From Aurantiochytrium sp. KH105 (lineage: Eukaryota; Sar; Bigyra; Thraustochytrida; Thraustochytriidae): a DNA stretch of 64,000 nt. The stretch covers positions 186,001-250,000 of the forward strand of contig BGKB01000055.1 in NCBI GenBank assembly GCA_003116975.1. The letters run 5' to 3'. The notes beneath the pieces were generated by a model that worked only from the letters and a program-made list of their open reading frames with translations, ran no database searches and was not told where the DNA came from. A program made the position numbers and the translations under genes. Shown here piece by piece: positions 993 to 39,600 of the stretch (the first letter of the stretch is position 1; each line of letters begins with the position of its first letter).

Positions 993-3134
993 TCATTTGC
1001 GAGGACCAATCACGTTACTCGCGAGGAAACGAAGACTCGTGGGATTGACAATGACGTCGCGCTTGGGACTCTGCGGGAAAAGACCGTGCGCCGGGCTGGA
1101 GGCAAAACTTCGCGATTTGGGAGAATTGAGCATGATTTGAGTGCGATCGAGAACGCCACCCGTGGCGGACGGTTCGTACGGAGCTGGAACCGCACGTAAT
1201 AAGAGGTCCTTACGAAGACGCTCCGTCTCGCGAAGGAGTTTACCCGGGTGAGCAGGCTCATCTGCCTCAATCTGAAGTCTTCCGAGGCGCTTCTTGCCAT
1301 TGAATCCCTGGGCCCCGGAGGCGCCCCCGGAGGCGCCCCCGGAGGCGCCCCCTGCGTCGCTCGGCGTGCTGTCTTGCGCACTAAAGGGCGCGTGATGGAC
1401 ACCCTGATCGTCAACGTAGCCTTCATCAACGGTACCGTCGCTTGCGAGGTCGTCGTCAAAATCGTCAGTACGTGTCGCATGGTTTCCCGCGAAAGCCGCG
1501 GACAAGTCTTGAAGCTGTAAGTTGAGCGACTCGCCATTTTCAGCAAGTGTGATGGCCTCCATCTCCGCAAGTCGAGTTGCTAGACGCTTCACCTTGCGCA
1601 TGTCTGCTCCAGGAGCACGCGCTTGAATCTCGAGCTCTTTGCGCATGCGCTCGAGCTCTCTCTGTTGTGTGATGCGATTCAATCGCGCCTGCATATCGGC
1701 AATAGCTCTACGCGCCTCAGTAGGTGTCGTCACCACGGCACCCGGTGCGAGAGGATGCTTGGGTGACGGAACCGGTGAGTTTTGGAGAAAGCCAGATAGA
1801 CGCCGCATGGTTTCAAGGTCTTCGTCCGCAGTGACGATCTGCAGACGAGACCCATTACGAGCGAGGCCGCGTTCTTTGGCGCCTCCGGAAAGCACAACTG
1901 CGGGCATGCTCGACTCCTGAAAGACGACGCTGCCAGGGTCTTGAAGCTCGAGCTGAATGTCGCGATTCACCTTTTGCAAGACGTTTTCGAGCATGACGAG
2001 CTCAACAATGCCGTCCAGAACGGTCCAGTCGGTCTGCAAAGCGCGAAATTCTGTTTCGAGACTAGAACGAAGCCTCGGCGAGAGAGCCCCGCCATAGAAG
2101 CCGTCTCGAACGCGAAAGTAAATGGCCTGATAGTCTTGGTCGCTCAAGAGTGGGTGGTCCTTTTCGAACGCCGATCGCTGTCGGGAGATGGCAAGCTGGA
2201 TCTTGCCGCTTGCATCGAGGAGACGAGACAGAACGGTCTCGGCTTCTCGCGAATCATCGCCGAGCAAGGTTGAAGAGGATTTGCAGCCGTTCGCTGCGGC
2301 GCTGGCTGCGTCTGGGGGCAAGTCTCCTTTTAGACGTTCTGCGACAAGGTATTCGACCTTGACACGCTCAAAGACCAGGTTCTCGGAGAGTTCATCAATC
2401 TGTTCGGCCGTGACTGTACCGAGGCTGAGACCATCCATGGCGCGATACAAGGCCAGCACGGCCTCTGCCCACGGCAAAAGCTCGGTGTCGCGCTCGACGA
2501 GGGCCCCTTGTCGGGCGCTCTCAACAAAAGAGGTGGCTAGGGCGACCTGAAGGTCCCATTCCTTCATGTCGAGTTGAGCGCGGAGCACACGCGCCTGTGC
2601 TTCATCGTCTCGGCAAAGACGAGCGTAAGCGAGTTCCATCCAGCGCGCAAAGTTCTCAAAGCTTTGCAGCGAGTCGACGAGATCAAGAAGCTCTTCAATA
2701 TGGGCACGTAGGGTTGGAGTTGTATCAGCGCCGGGCTGGAGTCTCGCCTCAAGCATGGCGACAAGTTCATCCTCGTTGACGCCAAGAGAGGTAATGAAGC
2801 TGGCCAGCATTTTCTCAGCCCATGTTTGAAATGTGAGGAAGAGGCCGTGCTGGTGGTGGCTAAAGTGCAATAGACTTGCTGACTTTTGTTCGCCGCCACG
2901 TGGAGTGTGTGCATTTTCCCAATTGCTCTCGTCCCACCCCTGCGGCGCTCGCGTGAGCTCTTGTGCATGGCTGTTCGACGACGCTCCTGCCGGTCTGGAC
3001 CCAACAAACTTTTTCGCGTGGCTGCTCACAAACACGGATAAGCTTTGCTGCCACTCGGCGCCTTGCAAGAACTCCTTGAGAAGACGCACATAAGGTTCCT
3101 CGTACTCGTCTTCGTCCTGCCTGAGCCGCTGCAT
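993..3134 (-). CDS. CFAP36-like protein with ARL2-binding (BART) domain
   Basis: Predicted 713-residue protein. Residues about 10-150 look like the BART fold of CFAP36/CCDC104 and ARL2-binding proteins: a helix with LLKEFLQGAEWQQSLSVF, then LFLTFQTWAEKMLASF followed by GVNEDELVAML, which resembles the GINEDQF region of CFAP36. That family binds ARL3-type GTPases and works in cilia. An insert of about 50 residues separates the first two helices. The middle is helical without a known domain, and residues about 490-570 form a charged coiled coil. The tail has three GGAS repeats encoded by a 12-bp repeat at about 1315-1355. The start is the first ATG of the frame; the frame extends upstream only through non-ATG codons. 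The protein is about twice the usual CFAP36 length, so strict orthology is uncertain. Confidence 0.6.
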   Translation of the reverse strand: MQRLRQDEDEYEEPYVRLLKEFLQGAEWQQSLSVFVSSHAKKFVGSRPAGASSNSHAQELTRAPQGWDESNWENAHTPRGGEQKSASLLHFSHHQHGLFLTFQTWAEKMLASFITSLGVNEDELVAMLEARLQPGADTTPTLRAHIEELLDLVDSLQSFENFARWMELAYARLCRDDEAQARVLRAQLDMKEWDLQVALATSFVESARQGALVERDTELLPWAEAVLALYRAMDGLSLGTVTAEQIDELSENLVFERVKVEYLVAERLKGDLPPDAASAAANGCKSSSTLLGDDSREAETVLSRLLDASGKIQLAISRQRSAFEKDHPLLSDQDYQAIYFRVRDGFYGGALSPRLRSSLETEFRALQTDWTVLDGIVELVMLENVLQKVNRDIQLELQDPGSVVFQESSMPAVVLSGGAKERGLARNGSRLQIVTADEDLETMRRLSGFLQNSPVPSPKHPLAPGAVVTTPTEARRAIADMQARLNRITQQRELERMRKELEIQARAPGADMRKVKRLATRLAEMEAITLAENGESLNLQLQDLSAAFAGNHATRTDDFDDDLASDGTVDEGYVDDQGVHHAPFSAQDSTPSDAGGASGGASGGASGAQGFNGKKRLGRLQIEADEPAHPGKLLRETERLRKDLLLRAVPAPYEPSATGGVLDRTQIMLNSPKSRSFASSPAHGLFPQSPKRDVIVNPTSLRFLASNVIGPRK

Positions 3135-3611
3135 CCTGTCCCCGCTTCGCGCGGCTCGGACTCCGTCGGCGGCGCGCTCCTGCAGCTTCCTGCCCGCTGT
3201 CAATCGCTGTCTGTCAGTCTGTGTCTTTTGATGACACGGCGCGGAAACCAAAAGTTCGCTTTTTGCGATTTTTATTCTTTGCCCCTATTGCGACACTGAG
3301 AGGGTGTGTACTATTTTCGCGAATCACACAGGAACGTCTTTGGTGCGTGCGAGCGGGGAATCACCCACTGTAACAAGGTGCAAAGGTTTGTCGGACGCAC
3401 AACAGATTGTGGCGGGAGGCCCGCAGCACGGGCAACACAGTGTCTGATAAACAATAAGGGAGACCAGAGCATGAGTTGCGCCTCGTTCAGGTTTTCGCGT
3501 GTTTGCGAAGTCCTTGCGCTGGGCAAATGAGAAATGAATGGATTTCATCCTCGACAGAATCAAAAACATCAAGATTTAACGCTGAGATATCGACATTACT
3601 AAGGGGTATAT
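3135..3611. other. Intergenic region, promoter of the CFAP36-like gene
   Basis: It separates two minus-strand genes transcribed in the same direction. It must hold the 5' flank of the downstream gene and the 3' end of the upstream one. No repeat or RNA gene was seen. Confidence 0.5.
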
Positions 3612-4395: not shown

Positions 4396-4513
4396 CGGCG
4401 CGAGGCCGCGGTGTGCACGCGATCTATAGTGCGGAACTAGTTGTGTGCCAGTTGCGGCGCGAGGCCGCGGTGTGCACGCGTTGCATAGTGCGGAACTAGT
4501 TGCGCGCCAGTCG
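4396..4513. repeat. 59-bp tandem duplication in a divergent promoter
   Basis: Two copies (4396-4454 and 4455-4513) begin CGGCGCGAGGCCGCGGTGTG and share ATAGTGCGGAACTAGTTG, with few mismatches. They lie between the starts of the small basic-protein gene (-) and eEF3 (+), so they probably duplicate a promoter or transcription-start segment. Confidence 0.8.
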
Positions 4514-4785
4514 CCGCCGCCCGGCGCCAGTGATTCGCGCCCCGTGCACGACCCGTTGCGCGGCGTCATCGGCGTCGTTGGCACCAAAACCTGCATCAAC
4601 AGACGCAGGCTCGGAGGCGCGAAGCTCGCTCTCGGGGACTCGCCGCTGCTTCGGAGAGCGCGCGCACGGGGAGAGCGCGGCGCGGAGCGTCCGAGAGCGC
4701 GTGCGGGAGCGCAAGCGCGTGCTTCGCGGGCGCGTCGAGGCGGAGGAGCCGCGCGAGGAGCCCGAGGAGAACCTCCCTCGGCAAG

Positions 4786-7700
4786 ATGGGCAAGAAGAAG
4801 GCCGCGGGCAAGGCCGCCGCGGGCGACGCCAAGAACGCCCCGCGGTGCCCCGTGGATGGGTGCAGGACGCGGCTGACCGCGGAGAAGGCCGCCAAGTGCG
4901 AGACCTGCGGCCTGAACGTTTGCACGCTGCACAAGTACCCGACGGACCACACGTGCAAGACGGCGGCGCCCGTGGCGCCCAAGAACGGTGGTGGGCTCAC
5001 GATCGTGTCCAACAAATCGAAGAAGTCCGACAAGCAGTCCGAGGAGGAGAAGCGCAAGGCGGAGGCCCGCGATGAAGCTCTCCTGAGCAAGCTTGTAGAG
5101 ATCAGCAGCGAAGACCTTCTCAAGGAACTGCTGGCCTTTGGCGCCTCCTCCGCGAGGTACGAGTCCTCGGTGGCCGTGCAGGCTCTGTGCTCCGAGGCCA
5201 AGGCCGTGCAAAAGTCCATGTTCGGGGCTGTGGGTCAGGGCGTGATGGAGACGGCCAAGGCCAATGGCGACCTCGACAAGCTCGCCGGAGCGTTGACCAA
5301 GCACCTTAGCGAGGCGGCATCTGCCAAGCGGCTGAGCAGCGATGAGGAGCAACGTGCTGTGGGCGTGGCGACTTTGCTGGGTATGGCTCTCGATGCCGAG
5401 GAGGGCGAGACGCGTGCCAAGTCGGACGAGACGCTCGAGCTGGGCAAGACCCTCGTGCGTGCGCCGTATGAGAAGCTCGCCAAGGCGGGCGCAAGTGAGG
5501 TGCTCAAGCGCGCTGCCAAAGCGCGCTGGTCGAATGGTCGCGCCTTTGAGGAGGAGTGCTGGCCCCTGTTGAGCAGCCTCGTCGATGAGGTGCTCAAGGT
5601 GCCCGAGGAGGACGACAGCCTCCGCAACGGTCTGGCCTACGCAATTGCGGCCGTGGCCGGCGGCTGCGGCGAGATCGCCGCCGGTCAACCGCTTGTGGAC
5701 GGCAAGCTCGCCCCTGTGTTGGACAAGCCCAAGAAGATTGCGCCGATTCTGGCGTGCATGCGTACGATGTTGGTTCTGACCAAGGAATGGGGCACGGCCA
5801 TCATGCCGTACCTGATGCCGGTGGACTTTTTGCAAAAGTCCCTCTTTGACGTGTACGACAACACGGCATCGAACGGTCGCTCGGCGACGAAAAAGGTGAT
5901 TCTGCAGATTGTGGACAAAATGGGCCCGCGCGGTGTGCGTTTGAGCGTGCCCATCTTCATGGACGGCCTGGAGCACGCGTCGTGGCGCGTCAAGGCCATG
6001 TCGCTGCAGTGCCTGGGCGCACTCGGCAAGCAGCGCGCGTCGCAGCTCTTCCGGGACCTGCCTATATTGATTCCGGCCGTCATGGAGTGCGTTCGCGACA
6101 CCAAGAAGCAGGTGAGCGAGGCGGCGAGCGACGCCCTCGATAGCTTGGGCGAGCTCGTGAGCAACGCTGAGACCATCAAGCTGTTGCCGTGGCTGCTCAA
6201 TGCGCTCAAGGACCCTGAACAGGTGGATCCTTGTCTTGACGAGCTGATGGACACGACCTTTGTCAACTCTGTGGATGCGCAAAGTCTTGCATTCATCATC
6301 CCCGTTGTCCTGCGTGGTCTGCGCGAGGGCACGGCAGACGTCAAGCTCAAGGCCTCCATTACGGCCGGTAACGTGTGCTCTCTGGTGGCCGATGTGCACG
6401 ACATGCGTCCCTACTACACGCACCTGTTGCCGGAGCTCAAGAAGCTCACGGATCACTCGCGCCCGCGTGTGCGCGAGATGGCGCTGCGTGCCAAGAACTC
6501 GCTGCAAGAGGACCTGAGCATGACGCGCCGGCGGAGCTCGCAAAACAGTGGCGGAGGGTCCGCGGCGGCCGCCGCGGCTGCCGTTGCGGCGGTGGGTGTG
6601 GGCGGCTCTGGCAACGCTGCTGACGCTGCGAGCGACGCGCAGGCTGGCGAAGTGCTGGAGTCAAAGCTCAAGGCGACGGGTCTTTTTGATCTTTTGGGCG
6701 AGGTTGCCTTTGACTACGTTCTTAGCACGTGCCGCATGCTGATGTTCGATCTGCTCGAGGACGTGGACCAGGAGATGCCCCGCAAGCTTGTGTACAAGCG
6801 CGCCCGTGCGCAGACGGAGGAGGGTGTGCAGCCGTTCGTGGCGCACTGCGACGATGCGGAGCAGACGCGTCTCTTGGACGCTGCGACCTCGGCTGTCGTT
6901 GACGCCTTGTGGGTGGCTCAGGGCAAGCAGGACGACGATGGTGGCGATGGCGAAGACTCGGAGAAGGACTACATTGTTTTCATCCCGAGCATCATTCTTG
7001 CTTTTGCGTCCCGCGTGCTGCTGAAGCGCGCCGGCCTCTTTTTGGAGCGCGGACATCGTTACTCGGTGGTGGGCCTGAACGGTACGGGCAAGTCGACCCT
7101 GCTGACGCGTGTTGCGGCGCGCGATATCGATGGCTTTCCTGATGACATCACTGTGTACTTTGTGCAGCACGAGATTGTGGAGGACGAGCAACAGCTGAAT
7201 GTGATTGACTACATGCAGCATGACGTCAAGTCGCAGGTGCAGTCCAAGGAGAACAAGAAGCGCAAGGGCGGCAAGAAGTTCGAGGACCTGTACGACTTGA
7301 GCATGGAGCACATGCTCGAGGTGTTGCGCGAAGTTGGATTCACGGATACTCTTTTGCAGCAGCAGGTTTCGGCGCTTTCTGGTGGCTGGAAGATGCGCCT
7401 TGCGATTGCGCGCTCGATGCTGTACATGCCGGACCTCTTGCTCCTGGATGAGCCTACCAACCATTTGGACGCCGCCGCGCTGGACTGGCTGCAAAAGTAC
7501 CTTGCCGGTCTCGAGGGCACGACGATTGTGCTGGTTTCGCATGACTACGACTTTGTGGACTACGTTGCGACGGATATCATCCACTTGGCCGACCAGAAGC
7601 TGGCGTATTACCCGTTTGGTTTCACGCGTTTCCAGCAGGAGCGTCCCGAGATTGTGGCGGCGCTGCCAAAGAAGGACGACAACGCCAAGAAGGAAGGCGA

Positions 7701-8781
7701 GGAGGGCGGCAACGCCGGGCTCTCTGCGATCGAGCTCATGGCCAAGGCCGCGACGGATGAGAACGCGGCAGCCCTGACTTCGGGCATCAAGCCGATTCGC
7801 TTTCCGGAGGGCTCCAAGCTTGAGGGCGTTACGCATCGCGGCAAGCCCGTTGCGCAGCTGACCAAGGTGACGTACGGCTACCCGGGCACGGACAAGATCA
7901 TCTTTAACGATGTGACAGTGAAGCTGACTCTGAACAGCCGCGTGGCGATTTTGGGTCCCAACGGTGCCGGCAAGAGTACTCTGTTGAAGCTGCTCGTGGG
8001 TGAGCTGGAGTTGGACGAGAAGCACGGCCATTCGGGCAAGTACTGGAAGCACCACAACCTGCGCACCGCGTACATTAGCCAACACTCTCTGCACCATCTG
8101 GAGAACCACCTTGAGGCGACGCCATGCCAGTACATTCAGGATCGCTTCTTTGAGGGTCGCGATAAGGAGGCCTCGAAGATGATCACGGTCAAGCTGGAGC
8201 CCGAGGACAAGGAGGCCATGGAGCGTTCGGGCGAGATTTGCGAGATCATTTCGCGCGTGGTGCGGTCGAAGAAGCTGTACTATGAGGTGCGCAAGAACGG
8301 CCGCGCCGAAAAGGGCGCGAATCGCGACATGCGTTCGCTCGAGGAGCTCGAGAAGATGTCGGTGGACCACCCGCACGTGATCAAGCTGGTACGTTTGTTT
8401 GACGAGGAGCTCAAGTTTGCGGCATCGGGTGCGGATCTGCGTCCGGTGACGACGCCTGAATTCATCAAGCACCTTGCGGAGTTTGGCATTGATTCAGAGA
8501 TTGCGCAACGCAAGGTCCGCTGGATGTCCGGTGGTCAGCGCGCTCGTCTTGTGCTCGCTGCGGCCATGTGGACATGCCCGCACATGATCATTCTTGATGA
8601 GCCGACCAACTATTTGGATCAGGACACTGTCGCGGCGCTCACGTACGCGCTCAAGACCTTTCGCGGTTCTGTCGTTCTCATTAGCCATCACCAGGGCTTT
8701 GTTGATGCTGTGGCCAACGAGAAGTGGCATCTTGAGAACGGTACGCTTCGCGTCGAGTCTCTCAAGACCGACAAGAAGTAA
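4786..8781 (+). CDS. eEF3: Elongation factor 3 (ABCF ATPase) with N-terminal AN1 zinc finger
   Basis: 1331 residues, against about 1044 in yeast eEF3. Residues about 24-61 form an AN1-type zinc finger: CPVDGC, an 11-residue spacer, CETC, then C, HKYPTDH and a final C. HEAT-like helical repeats span about 100-585, followed by an Ala/Gly-rich linker at about 585-625 and a helical bundle. ABC domain 1 has Walker A GLNGTGKST (about 763), signature LSGGWKMRLA (about 865) and Walker B LLLLDEPTNHLD. ABC domain 2 has GPNGAGKST (about 1057), a chromodomain-like insert, signature MSGGQRARL (about 1246) and IILDEPTNYLD. eEF3 helps release E-site tRNA during elongation and also acts in ribosome recycling. 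All catalytic motifs are intact. The AN1 finger is in frame with no stop between, and the start is the only plausible ATG ahead of it. Confidence 0.95.
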   Translation: MGKKKAAGKAAAGDAKNAPRCPVDGCRTRLTAEKAAKCETCGLNVCTLHKYPTDHTCKTAAPVAPKNGGGLTIVSNKSKKSDKQSEEEKRKAEARDEALLSKLVEISSEDLLKELLAFGASSARYESSVAVQALCSEAKAVQKSMFGAVGQGVMETAKANGDLDKLAGALTKHLSEAASAKRLSSDEEQRAVGVATLLGMALDAEEGETRAKSDETLELGKTLVRAPYEKLAKAGASEVLKRAAKARWSNGRAFEEECWPLLSSLVDEVLKVPEEDDSLRNGLAYAIAAVAGGCGEIAAGQPLVDGKLAPVLDKPKKIAPILACMRTMLVLTKEWGTAIMPYLMPVDFLQKSLFDVYDNTASNGRSATKKVILQIVDKMGPRGVRLSVPIFMDGLEHASWRVKAMSLQCLGALGKQRASQLFRDLPILIPAVMECVRDTKKQVSEAASDALDSLGELVSNAETIKLLPWLLNALKDPEQVDPCLDELMDTTFVNSVDAQSLAFIIPVVLRGLREGTADVKLKASITAGNVCSLVADVHDMRPYYTHLLPELKKLTDHSRPRVREMALRAKNSLQEDLSMTRRRSSQNSGGGSAAAAAAAVAAVGVGGSGNAADAASDAQAGEVLESKLKATGLFDLLGEVAFDYVLSTCRMLMFDLLEDVDQEMPRKLVYKRARAQTEEGVQPFVAHCDDAEQTRLLDAATSAVVDALWVAQGKQDDDGGDGEDSEKDYIVFIPSIILAFASRVLLKRAGLFLERGHRYSVVGLNGTGKSTLLTRVAARDIDGFPDDITVYFVQHEIVEDEQQLNVIDYMQHDVKSQVQSKENKKRKGGKKFEDLYDLSMEHMLEVLREVGFTDTLLQQQVSALSGGWKMRLAIARSMLYMPDLLLLDEPTNHLDAAALDWLQKYLAGLEGTTIVLVSHDYDFVDYVATDIIHLADQKLAYYPFGFTRFQQERPEIVAALPKKDDNAKKEGEEGGNAGLSAIELMAKAATDENAAALTSGIKPIRFPEGSKLEGVTHRGKPVAQLTKVTYGYPGTDKIIFNDVTVKLTLNSRVAILGPNGAGKSTLLKLLVGELELDEKHGHSGKYWKHHNLRTAYISQHSLHHLENHLEATPCQYIQDRFFEGRDKEASKMITVKLEPEDKEAMERSGEICEIISRVVRSKKLYYEVRKNGRAEKGANRDMRSLEELEKMSVDHPHVIKLVRLFDEELKFAASGADLRPVTTPEFIKHLAEFGIDSEIAQRKVRWMSGGQRARLVLAAAMWTCPHMIILDEPTNYLDQDTVAALTYALKTFRGSVVLISHHQGFVDAVANEKWHLENGTLRVESLKTDKK

Positions 8782-9277: not shown

Positions 9278-9774
9278 CTAGTTGTTGGTGAGGTATGCAC
9301 GAATTGCAGCCTCCATTGCTGCGCTCTGGTGATGATGCTGTTGTTGTTGTTGTGGTTGATGCTGCTGGAAGAAGAAGGCAGGATGCTGGCCATTGAGCTG
9401 CTGCAGGGCCATGAGCTTTTCCACAGAGTTATGGTTGTTGTTGCTGTTGTTTTGTTGTTGCTGTTGCAAGAGCTGCTGCTGGAAAAACTGTTGCTGCTGT
9501 TGTTGTTGCTGCTGCTGCATATTGCCATTATTGTTGAACATTCCGAGAGACTGGAGCTTCATTTGCATTTGAAGCTGCTGGAGCTGCTCTGGAGAGAGAT
9601 GGGCGAACTGTGGCTGCTGCGGCGAAAGGGTCGGCGAGCTTCGGTTGTTGTTGTTGTTGTTGTTATTGTTGTTGTCCTTGCTGTTGGGGTTAGCAATCCC
9701 GGTGTTGGCGGATGACCACTGAGAAGGCTTGGGAGCTTGCTGCTGCTGCTGGTTCTCAAGCTTGATGCCTTCTT

Positions 9775-9818
<44 letters not shown>

Positions 9819-11014
9819 ATGCTGTAGAGCTGCGCGAGCAGAAGATCGCTGGGATTGGATGATTTAAAGCCTGACATGGGGCTCGTGAAATTCGCGTTGC
9901 CAAGCGCGGGCACGGGCGAGGCAGTGGGCGAGGGCGATACAGCCGTAATAGTGGAGGCCACTGACGCGGGGGAAGCAGCCGGGGAGAGGTACTTTTGCAG
10001 CATTGCGTGGAGATTGGCAGCCGTGGAAGCCGCAACCTCTTCTGCAGAAGCGGGGGAGTTTGTGGACGGTGAAAAATTTGCGGAGTTGAGGTTGTTGTTG
10101 TTGTTGTTCATGTTGCCTTGGGCGAGGCCAAGTCCTGCGCCTCCCTTGGCGAGGAACTGGGACGCGACCGAGGTTTGAATTGGAAACGGACGCATGCTTG
10201 CCATGGCCAACTGCGGGGGCATGGGGCCGGAGGGATTGAATCCGGGAAGCTTTGCATTCTTTGCGGCAGCGTTGGACATGGCGCGATTTGCAGTGTCCTG
10301 GGACTCTGCGCCCGAGGCAGAGACAAAAGAGCGGCTGCAGCAGCCACCCTCGGCGCCGAAATAGCGGTCGCAGGACTCTTTGCAGACCGCATTGGTCGTG
10401 TCGATGCCAATGGAGCGCGCGACGCGATTCCTGCTCTGCGAATAGCCCACGTTTTCGAGGGTGATGAGGTCACCAACGTGGAAGATGTGCTCGCGGTAGG
10501 CCTCGGGAGGCTTGTAGAAGCCGCTATCGGCGGGATCGGCCGGGTTGGTAAGGAAGACGGCAAGTTTCTCGCCCCATTTGGCAACACGCGTGACCTTGTA
10601 GGCAACCTGAAGCTTGAGTCGCTTCATGTCCCGGGGCGGGCACTTGCCAACGCTCGAGGTGGATACGTTGTTATTGTTGTTGTAGTTGTTGTTTCCAGCG
10701 GAACTGCTCGAGGGGTCCTTGCGAAGACGCTTGGGCTTGGCGTTGGGGGAGGGAACGTGGGAGATTTTCTTACCACCGGCACTGGGGGCCTCGGTGTCGT
10801 CGGTGCTCTTGCGTTTGCCCGGTGTTGCAGGCGATGCTGGCCTTTCATGTGCCTCGGTCTCTGAGGGCGAGGGCGGGAGCTGCATCCTGCCGGAGAGCAG
10901 AGCTGCTGCCTCTTCCTCGGCGCAGCTGGTGGACCCCATCTTGCTGCTCGTGCTGCTGATGCTGTTGGCGCCGAAGGGTAGGTTCGTGGAGTACGCAAGC
11001 GTGCTGACGCTCAT
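9278..11014 (-). CDS. Q/N-rich low-complexity protein, possible transcription regulator
   Basis: 578 residues from the ATG at 11014; an ATG at 10939 (553 residues) is an alternative. The N-terminal 120 residues are Ser/Pro/Lys-rich with NLS-like stretches (PGKRKS, KPKRLRKD) and an Asn run. Residues about 130-235 are the only ordered-looking part: KRLKLQVAYKVTRVAKWGEK, then a beta-rich segment with IFHVGDLITLENVGY and a cysteine cluster around CKESCDRYFGAEGGCC. I do not recognise this domain. The rest is disordered, with Gln runs from CAG/CAA codons (about 9770-9820 and 9480-9520) and Asn runs near 9640-9670 and 10095-10110. Nuclear regulator or granule component are both possible. Confidence 0.7.
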
Positions 11015-11303
11015 CAACGACAACAACGCCAACAACAGGCGACTAAGAGCTCTTTGGTCTGGTCTGGTTTCGTTTGGGTCTGCGCTCGGAGTTTGCGAAA
11101 CCTCGAATGTACCTGTTCGGGTCGAGTCTTTGTCTGCCTGTCACTCGCCGCCTTCGGCCGACCGACCTTGCCAGCCACTACACGCCGCGGCCTCTAGCTC
11201 CGGACGGACGGACGGTCGCTCGCTCGCTCGAGTCTGCTGCCGCAACTGCTTCCCTCGCCTCGCGCCGCCGGGATGTTCCCGTACCGCAGCCGTGTCTCGC
11301 CTC

Positions 11304-36618: not shown

Positions 36619-39600
36619 TCTTCGATTGGTAAAAAATCCTCTCACCCCCTCCCTCTCCACCACCCCCTTCCTCCCACCCGCATCTGCAGTAACAGACGAA
36701 TACGCAATGCAGAATGTGCCGTCGTAATTAGTGACAAGCATCCACAGAAGAGGACACGTGCCGTGGAAAAACGGTTACAGTTTGTCTGCTGCTGCCGAGC
36801 TGCTGACGCAACCCGGCGTCTGTTGTGCGGCGCATGAGTTGATCTGGAGAGCAAGGGTACAATTAAGTGGCCCTCCAAATCATCAGGTAAAGTGAAACAC
36901 GCCGGGTTTCCACGCATCCCCCCACTCTCTCTCGTTCCTTTTTGACTGTCGGCGTCATGGTTCAGCCCCGTGATTAGAGACACAGAGTGTCTACACAGCG
37001 CTTAAGATGAAACGCGGCAGTGCGAACTTGCCCCTACCGGGTAGAACCAGCCAGGGAGCATCCCCCCGAAAGAGGATGCTCAACCCGGCCGGCTCAATAC
37101 CTTTCAGAACAAGCGCACCTGGACAATTAGTATTGGATCTTTGTCAACACATATACCTCACCAAAAAGAAAGTAGGCGTGCTTAATGACGAGACTGCCGC
37201 ATTCCCCGTGTTAGAAGGCGCCAGCAGTCTTGATCCTTGGGTACATTTCCTCTCTCTCACTCTCCTTGTCTTTTCACTCTCGGCGATGCCGTCACCATCT
37301 CCTCAAAGTCGCGTCCTACGTGCTGTAGAATCAATATTATCAAAAAAGAAACAGTCAGTTCGTCGGCCCTCCTGGAATTCGCAAAAGTAGTTTCACAGCG
37401 CGTCAAGAACAGCAATTGAAATTTGAAGCAGTCATCGGGTCTCCTCAGGCTGACTGCCTTCTCTCTCTCTCACCACTCACCCTCCCCCACTCCCACGCAC
37501 ACACCGAGACTCAACTACTCAAAACAGCGCGAGCGCGCATGCAGCCTCACTCAAAACAGCTTCGGGTCTGATAAGTTGCGTAGAAATCGCTCACGAGCTG
37601 TCAGATCCGAAAGATGGTATGTTCAGCAAAATCTTCATTCCCGCCGCCTCTGCATGCACGCACACCACTCATTCTCCATTCATCTGGAACAAAACCCAAC
37701 CCATGACTCTCCCCCAGAACCCACCCTCCTCAATGCTCGGATCAGTCCATCTAGTAGAGGAATTATATGAAAACCACACGGGGATGAGCACAGACTAAAG
37801 CGCATTCAGAGTAGCTGGTAAGACATCACATCCGTGCACCCCACCCACACCCACACCTGCCCCCACACGCACAATGACTTTGACGATCGACTTCCCACGC
37901 CGGTCGCAAACCTGATCGAAACCTCCTCAGACTTAAAAAGCTCGATTGTGTTCATTCCTCAAATGCCGAGACATATTGAGTGTTGAATTTCAGTTGAGCA
38001 TCATAGGAGAATCAGGTCCTATACCACGCCGCCATCCCAATAAGAAGACCGCCTCCTGCTCTTTCGACCCGACGCTTTCTACATCTTTGGTTCAATTGCT
38101 GTTTCGAGCACAGCCATGTGCGCGAATATCAACGTACCTCATGTCGACCATGCCGACAACCAGTGCGGTCAGTGTAACTATGACTATAAATGGTGCCTCA
38201 ACGCCAACGGCAAGCAATGACTGCATGCCAAAAAAGGCTCGGCGTCATGCTCGAAGACGAGCTGCTTCTTCACCCCGCTCCACGCAAAGCCAAACCTTGT
38301 CGAACTCCCCATCCCAACACCCACACCTCACCCAAATTGAATATACGGGCGCGTAGCGATCCGCAAAGACCAAAGAGCTCAGCCGACCGACTCTAAGAGC
38401 GTATCCAAGCTTGTGGCGCTGTCAAAATTGAATACAAACGGGAGGAGGATCTCCACGACTGTACTATCTCAGCGCAAGACCCTTGACTTGCTGCTTCCCA
38501 CTCACGTAACTCCCCCATATTCCCCACGATATCTGTATCTTTCGAGCCGTCGGTCGTTGTTATAGATCCGCGCTCACAAAGAACAATTGTTGCATCAGAG
38601 AGATTCCCATTTCCGTCCTCTCGGCATCGCACGCTGTCCACTACAGACAAGTGCTAACGATGTCCCTATTTGGAGTACTCTTCATCTGTAAACCAGACAT
38701 GGATAACAATATCCCGCTCTCGTTAGGGAACTTGCTTCGTCACATAATATTGACAAAAGGAATGCTCGTCACAGCGACTCTCTTGCACAGGTTCATTGCA
38801 TGATCGGATCCGCCAATCGTATATGAGCTGAGAACGATATTTCTCTTCAACGGACATAGTCCTCGAAGCGAGCTGGGTTATAAGTAAAACTTATCGTCAT
38901 CTCCGACATGACAGTTCACCCGTGCAAAAAGAGTCCCGTGTGTGCGTGTGCATTCCTGATGAAAAGAGCGAATCCTCCATAGCATATAAAGCACGTACCT
39001 GCATCGAACTTGACCGGTGTAGACAGTCATCCTCTCTCTCCATATACCCTCTTCCCAAACTCTAGACTCTGCTCTCGCTATTTTCCACCCCGTCTCTTGT
39101 ACTTGTCGTCCATGGAGCGATCAGCCAGTGTGAATACGATTCGCAGCACGTATAGGCTCAGAATACAAAAGTGCATCTCCTCGCTTAACCATTGACAGAA
39201 ATACATGAAACAACTTTGTCTCTTCCACTCTCTGCTGCCCCGCCCCAAGCGAGCGATCAGCCGTCATTTTGACTTCACATAGATGTCAGAAAATGTAGAT
39301 AAGTATAGTGTTGAGCATCCTCTCGCACGATACCATCCACCCCGCGCGCAACAATAACAGCATCGACGCTGTCCCCACTCCTGTCTGTAAAGAGACCATA
39401 ACAACAAACATCGTCAGTCGTCACGGATTCTTTCGCGCCATATGCACATCTTCTTCCCATCTCTCTCCTAACTCCCGTGTCTCTTCGCTGCGCATGCACC
39501 TAGGGCTCAGTCGATGGGTGGTGATCCTGAAGGATCTGGTGGTCATCGCAAAAAAGTGGGCTGGTGGACCCGAGCTACCCGTCTGATTAATAAATACATA

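Follow-up and report, generated by a model that had tools for sequence, protein, structure and literature searches.

The window analysed here, a stretch of 64,000 nucleotides from Aurantiochytrium sp. KH105 (contig BGKB01000055.1, positions 186,001 to 250,000 of the forward strand), carries a gene that joins an AN1 zinc finger to a protein of the elongation factor 3 (eEF3) family. The finding that both parts lie in one protein frame is confirmed. The finger is very probably translated, and the best reading of the protein's sequence is an old eEF3-family paralogue, not a recent local duplicate. As for function, the explanation that we favour, tentatively and at a little short of an even chance, is a specialised eEF3-family ribosome factor, probably of low to middling abundance, whose AN1 finger would dock a partner. 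The gene and its parts are as follows.

4786..8781, + strand: AN1-eEF3-like gene, an uninterrupted open reading frame of 1331 amino acids plus stop, initiator ATG in the context AAGATGG (open reading frame listing and second copy)
4846..4956, + strand: AN1 zinc finger, residues 21-57 (Pfam zf-AN1, phmmer against solved AN1 fingers, ligand alignment)
4957..5568, + strand: charged linker and helical region, residues about 58-261 (no aligned counterpart in yeast eEF3)
5632..6504, + strand: eEF3/GCN1-type HEAT repeats, HEAT_EF3_N at residues 283-451 and HEAT_EF3_GNC1 at 486-573 (Pfam; compared pairwise with GCN1 and eEF3 of the same genome)
6535..6648, + strand: low-complexity linker rich in Ala and Gly, residues about 584-621, joining the HEAT repeats to the region equivalent to the four-helix bundle
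6973..7665, + strand: ABC1 ATPase domain, with Walker A GLNGTGKS at 763, signature LSGGW at 864 and Walker B DEPTNHLD at 888
7792..8760, + strand: ABC2 ATPase domain, with Walker A GPNGAGKS at 1057, signature MSGGQ at 1247 and Walker B DEPTNYLD at 1271
8185..8430, + strand: divergent chromodomain insertion within ABC2, residues about 1134-1215 (aligned with New1 and with the eEF3 of yeast and of this genome)

Pfam matches the two HEAT families above their cut-offs (HEAT_EF3_N 82.9 bits, HEAT_EF3_GNC1 75.1 bits) and ABC_tran twice, all in the frame of the finger; Walker A, signature and Walker B are intact in both ABC domains. Residues 81-285 match no Pfam family. The protein ends 10 residues past the part aligned to yeast eEF3 970 and has no basic tail, the extension in which conventional eEF3 carries its eEF1A-binding tract. 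The initial annotation had placed the finger in frame ahead of an intact eEF3 and had raised a stop or an intron between the two as the alternative. There is neither: the frame is open from 4786 to 8781 and needs no intron. What follows the finger is, however, an intact eEF3-family protein that is a divergent paralogue, not eEF3 itself. The extra Ala/Gly linker that had been described is also real, although alignment with yeast puts it between the HEAT repeats and the four-helix-bundle-equivalent region, which precedes ABC1, and not between the HEAT and ABC parts.

The finger can be identified by several routes. With the whole protein as query, Pfam zf-AN1 (PF01428) scores 29.2 bits over residues 21-60, against a cut-off of 27.9; with the first 100 residues alone the score is 34.2 bits, and the next family, IBR, is under its own cut-off. 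The ligands C21, C26, C38, C41, C46, H49, H55 and C57 follow the spacing C-x4-C-x11-C-x2-C-x4-C-x2-H-x5-H-x-C, so the finger is complete with all eight as first described, but lies slightly upstream of the residues 24-61 then given. All eight are invariant in an alignment of this finger with the solved chain 1x4v and the genome's two other AN1 proteins. When the first 100 residues were compared with solved structures by phmmer, the top seven of the nine matches were AN1 fingers, led by 1x4v (a ZFAND2-type finger and the nearest solved AN1; E 5.4e-5), with one match alone below E 0.001 and the rest weak. Shuffling residues 1-100 never produced the ligand pattern in 300,000 trials, nor did shuffling the entire protein in 20,000, and the six-frame translation of the window contains it once. 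A Lys/Ala-rich tail precedes the finger and a Lys-rich linker follows it. A single-sequence AlphaFold2 model of residues 1-110, built with no alignment, was poor (mean predicted local distance difference test score 56.6). The genome holds at least three AN1 gene pairs, a lower bound in a search that ignores introns: the window gene, an A20-AN1 protein, and a helicase of the IGHMBP2/SMUBP-2 type with a C-terminal AN1 finger (locus L045, 3519-7235, minus strand, with R3H).

Evidence that the AN1 codons are translated comes from a second copy of the gene. The genes sought in the assembly (76.0 Mb, 367 contigs) occur as near-identical pairs on separate contigs, which we take to be two haplotypes, and the second AN1-eEF3-like gene lies at C4:185157-189149 with no stop and no indel in its coding part. 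The copies differ at 72 of 1332 codons (stop included), five of which change an amino acid, with 0 indels. Within codons 1-143 there are eight synonymous and zero non-synonymous differing codons and no indels; from site numbers alone, the chance of zero non-synonymous changes among eight is 1.2e-5. Upstream of the ATG, 230 bases contain 14 substitutions and 6 indels, whereas the first 230 bases of the coding part contain neither (Fisher p 1e-4, counting substitutions only). Because indels and substitutions stop at the ATG and the first 143 codons are free of amino-acid change, the finger is very probably translated. Codons 1-76 show zero differences, against about 7% synonymous difference elsewhere, but codons 1-77 hold only 57.7 synonymous sites and this is not strong alone. 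The finger codons themselves (21-60) have no differences of either kind, so that their support lies in low divergence and an intact frame. The next in-frame ATG is codon 145, ahead of which there is no indel or amino-acid change. Upstream, the window copy has an in-frame stop 255 bases before the ATG, and the C4 copy has a further in-frame ATG 876 bases before it. An assembly join was rejected as the cause of the fusion, given the gene's presence on a second, diverged contig, and an untranslated leader was rejected as the origin of the AN1 codons on the contrast between upstream and coding differences. In the 5′ flank, a unit of about 60 bases is present twice (window positions about 4398-4517), and the C4 copy is without one unit.

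The genome also contains conventional eEF3. A protein search of the genome found eEF3 pieces at about 39% identity to the window protein on contigs C131 and C20, and a HEAT_EF3_N profile search found the same places; the idea that the window gene is the genome's sole eEF3 was rejected on these grounds. There are four conventional copies (L039-L042), none of them complete and each broken by N: two contain just one N, and the other two have runs of 305 and 993. The N-terminus (MVSQELCQ...), the HEAT repeats, the whole ABC2 with its chromodomain and a basic C-terminal tail can be read, while most of ABC1 cannot. The ABC2 piece scores 470.7 bits against New1 and 420.1 bits against yeast eEF3. MAFFT alignments give the window protein 41-42% identity to this piece, and BLAST gives 36%. 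L039 and L040 lie on C131 at about 106 and 163 kb, and L041 and L042 on C20 at about 466 and 526 kb; GCN1 is at about 133-135 kb on C131 and 494-496 kb on C20. On each contig, then, GCN1 is flanked by two conventional copies that point in opposite directions and are separated by about 57-60 kb, likely an inverted duplication around GCN1 that is not resolved in the assembly.

Codon usage separates the two kinds of gene. With eEF1A as reference, and as a rough guide only since it rests on one reference gene, codon adaptation is 0.66 and 0.74 for conventional eEF3 pieces (0.79 for eEF1A itself) and 0.34 for the window gene, which falls inside the 0.20-0.40 spanned by the remaining genes (0.20 for the IGHMBP2-type helicase, 0.23-0.40 for four further ABCF genes, 0.30 for GCN1 and 0.35 for the A20-AN1 protein). 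The eEF1A in question is ordinary (the pair L047 and L048, at 720.9 and 720.5 bits). It has one TAG within the matched stretch and an open frame that begins inside the protein, and for these reasons an intron close to its 5′ end is likely. In a survey of the family, eEF3 and the protist form eEF3L are reported to tend to co-occur with EFL (PMC6723617); the present genome, which has eEF1A, departs from that tendency, as yeast does, EFL itself not having been searched for.

Trees of ABC2 carry the assignment to an old paralogue. With 12 rows, the window protein groups with eEF3, New1 and the genome's own eEF3 at 100/99 (bootstrap/SH-aLRT, the latter a Shimodaira-Hasegawa-like approximate likelihood ratio test), and with 8 rows the same grouping receives 98/98. 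Inside it, own eEF3, yeast eEF3 and New1 form a group that excludes the window protein (92/94 and 93/93, neither starred). Forcing the window protein together with own eEF3 costs 10.0 log units in ABC2 (approximately unbiased test, p-AU 0.034) and 14.7 in the HEAT core (p-AU 0.0028), in tests whose groups were named after the first tree had been seen, whose sets were small (8 ABC2 rows, 5 HEAT rows) and in which the window row was long in HEAT. It is the placement outside eEF3 and New1, together with the rejection of a joining with own eEF3, that argues for an old paralogue.

The HEAT part on its own gives a different ranking. Residues 331-577 are 33.5% identical to the genome's own GCN1 (142 bits) and 29.2% identical to own eEF3 (108 bits); GCN1 scores best against the HEAT part among the genome's own proteins, and GCN1 chains outscore eEF3 in a PDB search with the window protein. 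Own GCN1 was identified by its match of 237.8 bits with a solved chain of that name; eEF3 reaches 107.7 bits. The top chain against it, 8i9x_LR, bears the PDB name "Ribosomal protein L19", but matches at 673.8 bits along the GCN1 length, and we take it to be a GCN1 sequence under another name. In an unrooted HEAT tree of five rows, own and yeast eEF3 stand on one side and the window protein with two GCN1 rows on the other (100/99). With GCN1 as outgroup this tree agrees with the ABC2 tree. Descent from GCN1, considered because of the HEAT similarity, was rejected, as the unrooted five-row tree gives no such signal.

How such a protein might work can be sketched from its relatives. What the sequence itself shows is a single protein in which an AN1 finger is followed by eEF3/GCN1-type HEAT repeats and by a pair of ABC domains whose catalytic motifs are intact. 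By homology, the ATP-bound protein would sit at the eEF3/GCN1 site, spanning from the 40S head to the 60S central protuberance, until hydrolysis of ATP freed it from the ribosome. It would act on a subset of ribosomes and not as the general elongation eEF3: such a specialised role is suggested by the degraded chromodomain, the missing C-terminal tail, the modest codon bias and the presence of conventional eEF3. On its flexible linker ahead of the HEAT arch, the finger could then serve as a docking module for a protein partner, which is the weakest step of the proposal. The proteasome would be the first candidate partner, by analogy with other AN1 fingers, because the described AN1 functions in ZFAND5 and Cuz1 involve it, and docking of this kind would tie stalled or collided ribosomes to protein disposal. 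ZFAND5 touches the proteasome at its ATPase subunit Rpt5 by way of the AN1 finger, and its A20 finger binds ubiquitin (PMC11799193); in Cuz1, the Ubl domain binds Cdc48 and the AN1 finger is required for proteasome binding (PMC5035049). The initial annotation had described AN1 domains as binders of ubiquitin or Cdc48 partners, which is partly right: in the accounts of these two proteins, Cdc48 is reached through the Ubl of Cuz1 and ubiquitin through the A20 of ZFAND5 (PMC5035049, PMC11799193). That the finger recruits a quality-control partner is an inference.

Several observations weigh against this explanation. The AN1 finger of Cuz1 is described as insufficient alone for proteasome binding (PMC5035049). 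The AN1 proteins compared in the same paper carry Phe or Tyr at the position before the penultimate ligand Cys (PMC5035049); the window finger has Val45 there, where the other three aligned rows have Phe. The LDFLP motif of the Cuz1/ZFAND1/AIRAP subfamily is not in the window finger (CPVDGCRTRLTAEKAAKCETCGLNVCTLHKYPTDHTC), and among the 25 best of 44 Pfam families no A20, UBL or other ubiquitin module appeared. The ribosome contacts raise a similar question. Contact residues of yeast eEF3 have been described in both HEAT and chromodomain (PMC7957392). Among those in HEAT, the window protein keeps D438, K440, R563 and E564 (yeast D180, K182, R306 and E307), but K141 (S399 here), Q143, E184 and E304 (R561 here) are altered; own eEF3 keeps six of the same eight, with E184 and E307 altered. 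In the chromodomain, R802 alone is kept; V1158, V1159 and S1161 replace R803, K804 and K806, C1152 stands for E790, and K1162 lies at yeast N807, whereas own eEF3 keeps E790, R802, R803 and K804. An insertion is present in ABC2 at the chromodomain position, but most of the residues published as touching 5S ribosomal RNA and the L1 stalk are not kept. The label "degraded" nonetheless rests on few residues, and the yeast eEF3 chromodomain itself differs from New1 and own eEF3 at several contact positions. Judged by its ATPase motifs, all of them present, its missing tail and these residues, the protein looks able to bind and hydrolyse ATP with its L1-stalk and 5S contacts altered, and with several contact residues changed its binding at the eEF3 site is not assured.

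Other readings of the finger draw on the same features. It might be an extra ribosome- or RNA-binding element that extends the grip of the HEAT arch, and no disposal adaptor at all. This we consider unlikely, though it deserves attention: in the protein the finger precedes the HEAT repeats, which in yeast eEF3 contact the 40S head (PMC7957392), and it is flanked by lysine-rich segments and lacks LDFLP. The AN1 functions described for ZFAND5 and Cuz1, being protein-protein contacts (PMC11799193, PMC5035049), speak against this reading. It gains something from another AN1 protein of the genome, the IGHMBP2/SMUBP-2-type helicase with R3H. IGHMBP2 works with ribosomes. If the protein instead belongs to the GCN1/GCN20 stress branch, the HEAT part would compete or partner with GCN1 at collided ribosomes and the finger would tune that activity. 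eEF3 and Gcn1 are described as sharing contacts with ES39S, eS19 and uS13, as probably competing, and as having opposite effects on frameshifting at collided ribosomes (PMC8848926), and both the higher HEAT score to own GCN1 and the rank of GCN1 chains above eEF3 in the PDB search fit such a role. The five-row HEAT tree, however, fits equally well a protein that branched early within the eEF3 line, GCN1 being the outgroup, the ABC2 tree places the protein in the eEF3 family, its row is long, and slow change in GCN1 would raise the score too; we regard a place in the stress branch as quite unlikely.

The protein could also be an ordinary second eEF3, like New1 or Hef3, with the finger a neutral or nearly neutral addition. 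Fungi are described as retaining such eEF3 paralogues (PMC6723617), and the finger is a small one that has lost the conserved Phe, yet all eight ligands are kept and the identity of codons 1-76 between the copies points the same way, if not strongly by itself; on balance this seems improbable. Hardly credible is a protein that begins at Met145, with transcription or translation starting downstream and the AN1 codons left outside: in its favour, residues 58-261 match no known families, but the open frame, the AN1 match, the conserved ligands and the upstream-versus-coding contrast between copies all speak against it. A fuller version of the favoured docking role would make an ancient lineage apart from eEF3 and New1 into a quality-control adaptor: seated at the eEF3/GCN1 site when ribosomes stall or collide, it would use its AN1 finger to recruit the 26S proteasome or p97. 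This version is speculative and, taken as a whole, rather unlikely.

Each domain of this protein is known, and it is the combination of AN1 with the eEF3 family that is new in the sense of not having been found in the literature searched. Yeast eEF3 (YEF3; PDB 2iw3, 7b7d) and protist eEF3L share with it the HEAT repeats, two ABCF-type ATPase domains and an insertion in ABC2 at the chromodomain position, in the same order. The window protein differs from them in adding the AN1 finger and about 200 further N-terminal residues, in its divergent chromodomain, in lacking the C-terminal tail that is described for eEF3 and commonly for eEF3L (PMC6723617), and in coexisting with a conventional eEF3. 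Yeast New1 (PDB 6s47) is likewise a second eEF3-family factor beside eEF3 with the same core, but its ABC2 groups with eEF3, while that of the window protein falls outside, and the matched New1 sequence has no AN1 finger. ZFAND/SAP and Cuz1-type AN1 proteins have the eight-ligand finger in common with the window protein, which differs in carrying a single finger on a ribosome ATPase, with no A20 or UBL found and no LDFLP. The IGHMBP2/SMUBP-2 helicase, named ZFAND7 in PMC11799193, also bears one AN1 finger on a nucleic-acid-related ATPase, but it is a superfamily-1 helicase with R3H and its finger is C-terminal. GCN1 has a similar HEAT region but no ABC domains, while the window protein has about 1,300 residues.

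Among the papers searched, none was found that joins AN1 with eEF3, and none with both "thraustochytrid" and "elongation factor 3". The eEF3-family survey of Murina et al. reports eEF3L in heterokonts among other protists and covers three thraustochytrid-type proteomes; AN1 or a zinc finger is absent from its main text, though its supplementary tables may list the gene (PMC6723617). Sequence collections that contain few or no protist genomes were also scanned. Three viral contig scans gave 6, 1 and 60 stretches, none confirmed (the open reading frames of the single one include no eEF3), and another gave 0; one viral scan with an ABC2 query gave at least 34 loci with matches of 23-42%. In a genome contig scan, the best 80 of 582 loci all had prokaryotic record titles, and tblastn on a phage collection returned 242 records. 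In none of these did the match reach 80% of the query, and the 20 that were listed begin at residue 659 or later.

eEF3 was once considered specific to fungi, and Phytophthora infestans eEF3, the sole non-fungal one reported to function in yeast among the papers searched, supports growth of yeast lacking eEF3 (PMC5754060). That a stramenopile-like genome has conventional eEF3 as well as an old paralogue with an AN1 finger suggests diversification of the family either earlier than, or separately from, the split of eEF3 and New1 in fungi. The natural fusion also offers a handle for finding out what an AN1 finger binds at the ribosome; if its partner were the proteasome or p97, the eEF3/GCN1 site would be connected directly with protein disposal.

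Around the gene, the neighbouring open reading frame at window positions 993-3251 (minus strand) has a weak match to the ARL2-binding BART family (25 bits, cut-off 23), in which no stretch passes alone, and the downstream one at 9278-11035 (minus strand) has Gln/Asn runs and no Pfam match at E up to 0.01. Farther along, positions 37922-38009 (minus strand) resemble a C/D box small nucleolar RNA of the SNORD36 type (34.8 bits, gathering score 30, E 0.081). Elsewhere the genome has features that suggest a thraustochytrid: a PfaA-type polyunsaturated fatty acid synthase gene (930.4 bits, below the cut-off of 1010.1, in a frame of 1253 amino acids), and genes that are small, GC-rich and largely intron-poor.

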